A stretch of DNA of 60,703 bases from NCBI GenBank assembly GCA_002070965.1, contig MWEH01000108.1, positions 1 through 60,703 of the forward strand, given 5' to 3'. The translations under genes and the position numbers were made by a program. Shown here in pieces: positions 43,890 to 56,331 of this stretch. Position 1 is the stretch's first letter, and each line of letters starts with the position of its first letter. Source of the stretch: Firmicutes bacterium ADurb.Bin080. Its GTDB lineage: Bacteria > Bacillota > Clostridia > Christensenellales > DTU072. Under the pieces are notes generated by a model that saw only the letters and a list, made by a program, of their open reading frames with translations, ran no database searches and was not told the DNA's origin.

Positions 43890-44612
43890 ATGGGACAAAA
43901 GATTAATCCGACAGGCTTTAGAGTTGGTGTCATATATCCTTTCAATAGTACTTGGTACGCTGGCAAGAAGGATTTTGGCAAATTTCTGAAAGAGGATTAC
44001 TTAATTCGGGGATATATTAAGAAAAATTATTATGATGCAGCCATTTCAAAAATAATTATTGAGAGAGCCGCTGAAAATATAAAAATCGATGTGTATTGTG
44101 GAAGAGTTGGTGTTGCTGTTGGTAAGAAGCTTGATGCAAGAAGTAACGCTGGAGATCAAAATCAGACTTCCTCACAATCGACCACAACTACTGAAAAAGG
44201 CATTAATGATATCAACAATGCTATCAGAAAGATAGTGGGAAAAGAGAGAAATTTTAATGTTAATATTCACGAGATAAAAAACACCGATCTTGATGCACAG
44301 TTAGTGGCCGAAAATATTGCTGCTCAACTAGAAAAAAGAACACCTTTTCGCAGAGCCATGAAGGGCGCTATGAGCAGGACTCTTAAGGCTGGAGCAAAGG
44401 GAATTAAGGCGATGGTCAGTGGTAGATTAGATGGAAATGAAATAGCTAGATCTGAAAGTTATCATGAAGGATCCATTCCTTTACAGACAATGAGAGCTGA
44501 TATAGATTACGGTTTTTCGAAAGCCCAGACCACATATGGTGTGTTGGGAGTAAAAGTTTGGATATATAAGGGAGAGATTTTCGAAAAATCAGGAAAAGGA
44601 GGTAATAACTAA
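43890..44612 (+). CDS. rpsC: Ribosomal protein S3 with an insertion in the KH domain
   Basis: A 240-residue small-subunit protein at the mRNA entry, where it helps unwind m[16 protein letters not shown], the C-terminal [18 protein letters not shown] and [23 protein letters not shown] are classical. The KH GXXG loop, normally GKKG, is interrupted. GKK (78-80) is followed by about 23 residues rich in Ser, Thr, Gln and Asn before the helix resumes at [12 protein letters not shown] (104-115). The reading frame is clean and flanking regions align, so this is a real insertion and not a frameshift. Confidence 0.96.
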
Positions 44613-44613
44613 T

Positions 44614-45048
44614 ATGTTAATGCCTAAGAGAGTAAAAAGAAGAAAACAACACCTTACAAAAACTAAGGGAAGAGCGGCTGTTGGTAACAAAATAGCTTAT
44701 GGAGAATTTGGATTGATCGCACTTGAACCAGGAAGAATCACAAGTAACCAAATCGAGGCAGCTCGTGTTGCAATGACAAGGTATATCAAGCGTGGAGGAC
44801 AAGTTTGGGTAAATATTTTCCCCCATATGTCAGTAACCCAGAAACCTGCAGAGACTCGTATGGGAAGTGGAAAAGGAACCCCAGAATATTGGATAGCTGT
44901 AGTTAAGCCAGACAGAGTTTTATTTGAAATGGGTGGAATAACTGAAGCCCTTGCAAGAGAGGCCTTAAGATTAGCTGCACAAAAACTTCCAATAAAATGC
45001 AAGTTTGCAAAGAAGACTGATTTAGTGGAACAAGGCGGTGAAGCATAA
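44614..45048 (+). CDS. rplP: Ribosomal protein L16
   Basis: A 144-residue large-subunit protein near the A-site tRNA elbow. [34 protein letters not shown] and [19 protein letters not shown]-like sequence are diagnostic. GGAGG is 11 bases from ATG 44614 and 17 from the second ATG, so the first is preferred. Length is normal. Confidence 0.97.
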
Positions 45049-45293
45049 TGAAATCAAATACTTTTTTTGAAATGACCAATGAGGAATTGAACAATAAAGT
45101 TCAAGAGTTAAAAAAACAACTGTTTGAGTTGCGCTTTAAACAATCCGTATCTAAGTTGTCAAACCCGTTAAGCATAAATGAGTGTAAAAAAGATATAGCT
45201 AGAGCTCTTACAATTCTTCGTCAAAGACAACTCGGGATTTCCGAAGAACCTACGAAGACAGTAAAGAAAAAGACATCTAAGTCTAAGGCATAA
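45048..45293 (+). CDS. rpmC: Ribosomal protein L29
   Basis: An 81-residue helical protein at the tunnel exit, next to L23. MTNEELNNKVQELKKQLFELRFKQ and KDIARALTILRQRQ are typical. A Lys/Ser/Thr-rich tail of about a dozen residues (TVKKKTSKSKA) makes it slightly longer than the usual 65-70. Its start overlaps the rplP stop (TAATG). Confidence 0.96.
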   Translation: MKSNTFFEMTNEELNNKVQELKKQLFELRFKQSVSKLSNPLSINECKKDIARALTILRQRQLGISEEPTKTVKKKTSKSKA

Positions 45294-45963: not shown

Positions 45964-46518
45964 ATGGCTAAAACAAAACTTCGTAAAGATGATTATATTA
46001 TGATTATCTCTGGAAAAGATAAGGGTAAGACTGCCCAAGTTATTTCTGTTGATTCGGATAAAAATAGAGTTTTTGTAGAAGGCAATAATTTGGCTTCGGT
46101 AAACACTAAAGCTGTAAAAGCAAGAAAGGCCAGTGAACAGAGTGGGTTAATCAAGAGACCTGGAAGCATTGATATTAGCAACGTTTTGCCTGTTTGCGCT
46201 TCCTGTGGAAAACCTACAAGAATTGGCATGGAAGTTGTTGATGGGAAGAAAGTTCGCGTTTGTAAGAAATGTGGGGCTGTTTTAGTTACAAAGAAAGCAG
46301 CTGCAAAAGCTGCTGCAAAAGCAACAGTTAGAAAAAAGGTCGCAGTAAAGAAATCCGAAACGGACTTAGAGGCGACAAATAATAATACTCAAGATGTTGT
46401 GCTAGCTCCAGAGGGAATTCAAGAAGAGAACAAAACTAAAACAACGGTAAAAACCAGAAAGAAAATTGAGAAAACAGCAACCGATTCGGAAAGTAACGGT
46501 TCCGCTGAAGATAAATAA
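45964..46518 (+). CDS. rplX: Ribosomal protein L24 with long C-terminal tail
   Basis: A 184-residue L24; the family is normally 100-110. The KOW motif [13 protein letters not shown] and the [27 protein letters not shown] zinc-ribbon-like segment (about 78-102) are complete. From about residue 108 an 80-residue tail begins with Ala/Lys repeats and continues as a Lys/Thr/Glu/Ser low-complexity region ending SAEDK. ATG 45964 is chosen because GGAGG is six bases away; ATG 45961 is only three away. The tail is in frame up to the usual spacing before rplE. Confidence 0.95.
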
Positions 46519-46529
46519 GGAGGCGCAAG

Positions 46530-47120
46530 ATGGCTAGCAAAAAAGAAGCAGTTGTAAAAGAGGCTCCTGCGCAAAGAGAAGTAAGAAGACTTCAAATCAA
46601 GTTTAGAGAAGAAATTATCCCGGCTATGATGAAAAAGTTTAGTTACGGATCTGTAATGGAAGTGCCTAAACTTGAAAAAATTGTCTTAAATATGCGTTTG
46701 GGTGACGTAAAAGATAATGCAAAGAGCATGCAACTTGCAATAAAAGAGTTAGAAACTATTTCTGGGCAAAAAGCAGTAGTTACTAAGGCTAAAAAATCAG
46801 TTGCAAACTTTAAAATTAGACAAGGACAGTCGGTCGCAGCTATGGTCACTCTTAGGGCAGATCGTATGTGGGATTTTTTTGATAAATTGGTTTCAATAGC
46901 TCTACCCCGTGTTAGAGACTTTAAGGGAATTTCCCCTAAAGCTTTTGATGGAAGAGGTAACTATGCACTTGGAATTAAGGAACAACTTATTTTCCCAGAA
47001 GTATCATATGACGAAATCGAACATGTTCGTGGATTTGATATAAGTTTTGTTACTACAGCTAAGACAGACGAGGAAGCAAAAGAACTTCTCACTCTTCTTG
47101 GAATGCCCTTTGCGAAGTAG
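46530..47120 (+). CDS. rplE: Ribosomal protein L5 with N-terminal extension
   Basis: A 196-residue protein of the central protuberance that binds 5S rRNA and contacts the P-site tRNA. The usual start ([29 protein letters not shown]) comes after about 23 extra residues rich in Lys, Glu and Ala. [22 protein letters not shown] and the [20 protein letters not shown] segments are conserved. GGAGG before ATG 46530 supports the longer form; no good site precedes a shorter start. Confidence 0.96.
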
Positions 47121-55815: not shown

Positions 55816-56331
55816 ATGGCAAAGAATAAAAAATTAGGTAAGAGGACTGATATTCGCTTATATATATTGAAAAATCAGGCTAGTGAGCTTCTTTGGTATG
55901 GAAAACTTGAAACCACGCTGGATAGAGCAAAATCTGTTAAGAGAATTGCCGAGAAGATGATTACGTTGGCAGTCAAATCTTACGAAGACACGGTAAAGGT
56001 TTATAAGGATAAGCTTAACCAAAAAGAGGAAACAATTAAAGTTGAATATCAAAATGATGGGCCCAAAAAACTTGCTGCTCGTAGAAAAATTCTTGCGAGC
56101 CTAAGAGACCTACAAGAAATCCAGGGTGAAAAAGAGAAGAAAGCAGATTATAAAGAAAGAACTGCAGAAATTACCCATCCTTTGGTTGAAAAGATTTTTC
56201 GTGAATATGCCCCTAAATATGCTGCCAGGGCGGCAGAGAAGGGAACTTCAGGAGGATATACGAGGATTATCAAACTAGGAGCTAGAAGGGGAGATGACGC
56301 AGAAATGTGTATTCTTGAACTAGTTGACTAA
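55816..56331 (+). CDS. rplQ: Ribosomal protein L17 with central insertion
   Basis: A 171-residue protein near the tunnel exit; most bacterial L17 proteins are 115-130. The N-terminal part (KLGKRTDIRLYILKNQASEL, then LETTLDRAKSVKRIAEKMI) and the C-terminal GGYTRIIKLGARRGDDAEMCILELV are normal. Between about residues 54 and 110 lies a Lys/Glu-rich helical segment of some 50 extra residues. The frame is continuous and an AGGAG site is present. It is the last gene of the alpha operon and is followed by a strong terminator. Confidence 0.95.
   Translation: MAKNKKLGKRTDIRLYILKNQASELLWYGKLETTLDRAKSVKRIAEKMITLAVKSYEDTVKVYKDKLNQKEETIKVEYQNDGPKKLAARRKILASLRDLQEIQGEKEKKADYKERTAEITHPLVEKIFREYAPKYAARAAEKGTSGGYTRIIKLGARRGDDAEMCILELVD

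Follow-up and report, generated by a model that had tools for sequence, protein, structure and literature searches.

Low-complexity extensions of ribosomal proteins are already known. In bacteria, such regions are frequent, mostly C-terminal, placed at the surface and rich in Ala, Glu and Lys, and they are described without an assigned role; for the lysine-rich ones, binding of nucleic acids was suggested (PMC6821194). Extensions exceeding 20 residues are widespread among bacteria, and in the case of Mycoplasma pneumoniae they are mostly predicted to be disordered and their disruption affects fitness (PMC9534751). As for uL24 itself, the protein adjoins the tunnel exit (PMC6298777), where contacts of nascent chains with particular ribosomal proteins were reported (PMC8556260), and SecA contacts the ribosomal protein uL29 in E. 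coli (PMC6620043). The chloroplast protein uL24c, also at the exit, is 40 residues longer in all, and a contact with the nascent chain was proposed for it (PMC5071890).

The window analysed here is a contig of 60,703 nucleotides from an assembly (202 contigs, 2.65 Mb) of an uncultured member of the Clostridia. Its uL24 gene, rplX, lies in the ribosomal operon between uL14 and uL5, and the features of this region are the following:

45964-46518, forward strand: rplX (uL24), 184 residues; protein codons 45964-46515, stop codon TAA 46516-46518
45964..46284, forward strand: uL24 core, residues 1-107; KOW domain and L24 C-terminal region, by HMM matches and AlphaFold2 fold
46285..46353, forward strand: tail block 1 (residues 108-130), with 9 basic residues and no acidic ones; dN 0.020, dS 0.90 against the nearest relative, G001
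46318..46338, forward strand: KATVRKK word inside tail block 1, an instance of [AT][AVT]R[KR][KR]
46354..46428, forward strand: acidic linker (residues 131-155), with 7 acidic residues and no basic ones
46429..46473, forward strand: tail block 2 (residues 156-170), with 7 basic residues and a single acidic one
46474..46518, forward strand: acidic C-terminal end, residues 171-184, with the stop TAA; 1 basic and 4 acidic residues
46519-46523, forward strand: GGAGG, directly after the uL24 stop
46530..47120, forward strand: uL5, the next gene; 18 residues precede its NCBIfam match

Residues 1-107 are a complete, ordinary bacterial uL24. The initial annotation had called the core complete, and the profile searches bear this out: TIGR01079 matches residues 3-106 (E 3e-26, 91.9 bits against a cut-off of 53.7), PF17136 reaches 74 bits against a cut-off of 27, and KOW is also above its cut-off. 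The core contains a zinc-ribbon-like CxxC...CxxC arrangement, of which both CxxC pairs are kept in the window protein and in 48 of the 56 uL24 sequences read. In the AlphaFold2 model, ten-residue blocks of the core have pLDDT values of 74-90, and the best uL24 match in the PDB covers 102 residues with an rmsd of 2.4 (Z 14.2). The same core fold is found in the uL24 chains of B. subtilis (6ha1, 103 aa, Z 13.5) and T. thermophilus (4v8a, 107 residues, Z 13.9). Among the 60 PDB matches listed, uL24 chains are no longer than 122 aa, except for five of 159-234 aa. Relatives identified by uL24 were mostly metagenome-assembled; the 13 named records include Clostridia, Clostridiales, Eubacteriales bacterium, Candidatus Stercoripulliclostridium and Christensenellaceae, the lowest being an Omnitrophota record at 37% identity.

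After this core follows a C-terminal tail of 77 residues (108-184), made of four blocks of alternating charge. It had been placed correctly by the initial annotation, the tail codons running from 46285 to 46515 before the stop at 46516-46518, while the length given there, 80 residues, has to be reduced to 77, and the statement that it nearly doubles the protein corresponds to a 1.72-fold lengthening from 107 to 184 aa. Its description as Ala/Lys repeats followed by a Thr/Glu/Lys stretch is fair, the alternation of charge blocks being the more telling pattern. Charge is more segregated in the window tail than in its own shuffles (P 0.011). As P fell below 0.05 in 17 of the 34 tails of the window's family and in 2 of the 11 tails of other families, charge segregation is a tendency of these tails and no rule.

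AlphaFold2, run with 13 sequences, gave the tail pLDDT values of about 40-49 and no secondary structure. Segments below 50 comprise residues 112-147, 149-153 and 155-180, and these predictions support the view that the tail is intrinsically disordered. pLDDT serves here as a proxy for disorder, in place of the disorder program used in PMC9534751; by this proxy the tail resembles most of the M. pneumoniae extensions described there. It also meets the count of more than 20 residues past the E. coli end used in that work, as 77 residues follow a core alignable to chains of 100-110 aa, and it resembles the regions of PMC6821194 in being C-terminal and rich in Ala, Glu and Lys. In contrast, the frequent carriers named in PMC6821194 are S2, S16, L25, S3, S6, L3, L10, L17, L19, L21 and L31, and the main texts of both PMC6821194 and PMC9534751 do not contain the name 'L24'. 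The visible part of the chloroplast uL24c extension is N-terminal and 15 residues long, whereas that of the window protein is C-terminal (PMC5071890); an N-terminal extension of the chloroplast type, reaching to the tunnel, is lacking in the window uL24. A known domain was rejected as an explanation: no Pfam family matched the tail with an E of 1 or below, and the one NCBIfam match had E 0.045 and 13.1 bits against a cut-off of 190. In the literature searched, no report of a uL24 tail in these bacteria was found.

The distribution of the tail was then followed across the order, class and phylum. Absence from close relatives had been named beforehand as an observation that would refute the initial interpretation; instead, tails were present in 34 of the 34 genomes of the window's family in which the 3' end of the uL24 gene was read, with lengths of 22-126 aa, so that this objection fails. 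From the rest of the order, a first draw took one genome per other family. Of these, 22 gave a uL24 match, and they divided evenly: 11 have a tail of at least 25 aa and 11 end 2-4 residues past the core. Altogether, 16 families are tailed (f1, f3, f6, f8, f9, f10, f14, f15, f17, f19, f20, f21, f28-f30 and f32) and 15 are tail-less (f2, f4, f5, f11, f12, f13, f16, f18, f22-f26, f31 and f33), with no uL24 match obtained for f7 and f27. No mixed family occurred among those read, several of which are represented by one genome. Outside the order, the 8 longest frames among those listed in a class sample carried no tail, and neither did the 5 longest frames read in a phylum sample outside the class.

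Two trees place this pattern on the phylogeny. The first has 54 rows, not selected by tail, and was built from uS17, uL14, the uL24 core and uL5. One branch (SH-aLRT 98) splits its 43 tailed from its 11 tail-less rows, and none of 500 shuffles needs as few state changes. In the second tree, of 126 rows from the uL24 core and uL5, the 104 tailed rows form one clade (SH-aLRT 98) nested in tail-less lineages, giving one gain of the tail and zero losses. The outgroup of this larger tree consists of 8 genomes of the class from beyond the order, which are the longest class frames listed there, and it favours families with long open frames, as 60 added stretches were taken mainly from these. Both trees are quick ones without bootstrap and contain several weak forks; a few rows, all tailed, were left out for little sequence (G031 and G020 from the 54-row tree; L119, L120, L139 and L173 from the 126-row tree). 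Among the rows read, the tail thus seems to have been gained once within the order and then kept. A tail that was gained once and has been kept since probably has a job on the ribosome. According to PMC9534751, the extensions studied in that work are confined to no particular sub-group, while the uL24 tail marks one clade among the genomes read.

What these tails have in common was surveyed in 104 tails from 15 families (5281 residues). Their length ranges from 22 to 173 aa, with a median of 40. Net charge is positive in all 104, though as low as +1 in some, and the first 25 residues reach a net charge of +3 or more in 100 of them. Lysine makes up 27% of the residues, Ala 21%, Glu 13% and Thr 12% (72% together), and only 19 of the 5281 residues are aromatic. 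A make-up so rich in lysine, positive and poor in aromatics points to binding of nucleic acids rather than to a membrane-inserting or hydrophobic element. Short words recur within families: PKKR[TV]RKR in most f15 tails, AKKAAK in 7 of 9 f3 tails, KATAKK in 7 of 9 f17 tails and KKEAKK in 6 of 9 f28 tails. In 6 of the 8 families with at least five tails, the best common exact 6-mer surpasses every one of 200 shuffles (f6 ties and f32 fails), and in a reduced alphabet the best 8-mer beats the maximum of the shuffles in 8 of 8, both tests being inflated by near-identical family members. Common ancestry accounts for part of this similarity within families. Positive charge and disorder are general to the tails, each word being local to one family; between families, it seems to be charge rather than sequence that is kept. 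Since the charge is kept while the words change, electrostatics or generic phosphate binding is favoured over one conserved protein partner.

To describe selection at the residue level, the window's genome (G000) was compared with its nearest relative (G001), whose uL24 is of equal length and aligns without gaps. In this single pair (NG86), dN and dS are 0.024 and 0.70 in the core and 0.105 and 0.69 in the whole tail; for comparison, dN of uL14, uL5, uS17 and uL29 is 0.005-0.025. The tail is uneven in this respect. In addition to block 1, residues 156-184 change little (dN 0.015, dS 0.34, the latter from just 5 synonymous codons), whereas the linker 131-155 has a dN of 0.33 and a dS of 1.07. 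Counted as residues, 2 of 52 differ in 108-130 and 156-184 together, the linker having 11 differences in 25 positions (Fisher P 3.4e-5). Judging from this one pair of sequences, residues 108-130 and 156-184 appear to be constrained approximately like the cores of ribosomal proteins and the linker appears to be free. The low dN/dS over the tail, together with the presence of tails in every family genome read, argues that the tail is not there by chance. Two constrained stretches with a free acidic linker between them look like a two-point tether.

Our preferred reading, a tentative one but with a sizeable chance of being correct, is that uL24 has in its tail a polycationic arm, intrinsically disordered and under selection, that grips a phosphate-rich surface near the exit and helps to assemble or hold this region. 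The block-wise constraint, the single gain, the positive charge of all 104 tails and the basic words common within most families speak for it. The basic blocks would rest on the phosphate-rich surface round uL24, which could be that of the 23S rRNA close to the exit rim or that of an adjacent ribosome, and the acidic linker would stop the arm from sticking along its whole length. In this way the arm may assist the assembly or the holding of the exit-rim region. Counting against this reading, the strict form of the basic word described below is absent from 4 of the 34 family tails. The tails with weak charge segregation or a net charge as low as +1, and the extended uL5 of some relatives, also speak against it.

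This word, [AT][AVT]R[KR][KR], occurs in 30 of the 34 tails of the window's family, where 0.8 would be expected from shuffling each tail, and in 0 of 11 tails from other families (0.1 expected). A looser form occurs in 27 of the 34 (2.8 expected) and in 1 of the 11 (1.1 expected). Where the strict form is present (30 tails), the first copy begins 12-81 residues past the core. The uL24 tails of L028 (G016), L012 (G007) and L055 (G020) contain 2-3 copies of the loose form with acidic-containing stretches between them; repeated copies in long tails suggest that such tails may have grown by duplication. Searched as a DNA pattern, the word has a single match in the window's genome, in rplX, and 0 in the reversed control; as the pattern leaves out CGN at the last two places, its codon coverage is partial and other copies in the genome are possible. 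Summed over 40 family genomes the pattern is not enriched, with 49 matches against 51 for the reversed control, and a motif common to other proteins is therefore unsupported. We read 31 of the 49 matches, within 30 fetched loci, and found 17 in uL24 and 14 outside it. Twelve of the latter are in frames no longer than 62 aa, one is in a 105-aa frame and one in a 613-aa frame (KATTSKK, L086); in frames of at least 97 aa, uL24 thus accounts for 17 of 19 matches. Among the 18 further matches, 4 are inside uL24 tails by their coordinates (G001, G008, G014 and G027).

The chief rival to the rRNA-gripping arm builds on this word. According to it, the word would act as a short linear motif, tethered at a variable distance, which recruits SecA, SRP/FtsY, YidC or an anionic membrane to the ribosome. 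The position of uL24 near the tunnel exit (PMC6298777) fits with such docking, as do the varying distance of the word from the core, expected of a tethered motif, and the finding that pattern matches read in long frames are nearly all in uL24. In the window, uL29 (45048-45293) has a Lys-rich C-terminal extension. uL29 continues at least 15 residues past position 60 in 28 of 30 genomes of the window's family, in 4 of 11 other tailed genomes and in 0 of 10 tail-less ones, so that the SecA contact of E. coli (PMC6620043) is also longer in the window's family. These extensions are, however, mildly charged and reach net +5 in just 1 of the 30 family genomes. Against docking also stands that sister families share the charge and not the word, although Sec/SRP partners should be common to them. 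A trigger-factor N-domain was detected in 55 of 58 relatives, which rules out that the tail replaces trigger factor. In three genomes of genus g3 in the window's family (G004, G012 and G018), 2-4 weak trigger-factor N-domain matches were obtained for each, with a best E of about 1e-12, unlike the single strong match that is usual in this family. On balance we consider docking doubtful. A broader version, in which one ancient change produced an indispensable mobile arm that steers docking at the exit (Sec/SRP or membrane), with the word as its contact and uL29 as a second arm, appears unlikely.

Longer termini are not a general trait of the ribosomal proteins scanned in this genome. In 20 others encoded in the window (uS14, uS13 and uS11 being outside the scan), no terminus exceeds the NCBIfam match by more than about 21 residues, the longest being the uL29 C-terminus and the uL22 N-terminus, and the S16 and L21 frames of this genome, 110 and 103 aa from stop to stop, have little room for a long tail. 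A general lengthening of ribosomal proteins is therefore not seen. Within the window, bL17 (55816-56331) has an internal insertion of about 57 residues when compared with TIGR00059, of which 110 model positions are matched by residues 5-171, and uS3 (43890-44612) has a Thr/Ser/Gln-rich one of about 22 residues relative to TIGR01009. Some tailed relatives have N-terminal extensions on uL5, of about 240 residues in G051 (L053) and of up to about 165 residues, rich in Lys, Ala and Thr, in G040 (L034); in L037 (G046), another extended uL5 lies across the junction from the uL24 tail.

uL5 sits at the central protuberance, away from the tunnel exit. As it is extended nonetheless in some tailed relatives, the exit position of uL24 is not the whole story, and this, together with basic words that differ by family, cuts against readings based on the exit only. 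The extended uL5 N-termini of G051 and G040 would also fit with drift, in which low-complexity DNA expands at the uL24/uL5 junction and is tolerated as a functionless tail, and so would the wide range of tail lengths and the repeated word in long tails such as that of G016. We regard drift as distinctly unlikely, because the two constrained stretches flank a free linker in the G000/G001 pair, no loss occurred across the 104 tailed rows, all 104 tails are net positive and the terminal excess in the 20 other proteins of the window is small.

Another role, such as bridging of ribosomes, of mRNA or of nucleoid DNA, or keeping nascent chains soluble, is markedly improbable in our view, even though contacts between nascent chains and particular ribosomal proteins were reported near the exit (PMC8556260) and the Lys/Ala-rich make-up resembles that of H1-type tails.

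The tail adds to what is cited here from PMC6821194 and PMC9534751 in four respects: uL24 is the carrier, the gain is placed once with no loss among the rows read, constraint differs by block, and a word is particular to the family. Descriptions of ribosomal-protein tails usually present them as scattered features with no known use. For uL24, the tail can be traced to one gain, no loss being seen among the genomes read in 16 families, and it divides into constrained and free stretches. Tailed and tail-less sister families are thus a natural experiment on the purpose of a disordered arm at the tunnel exit.
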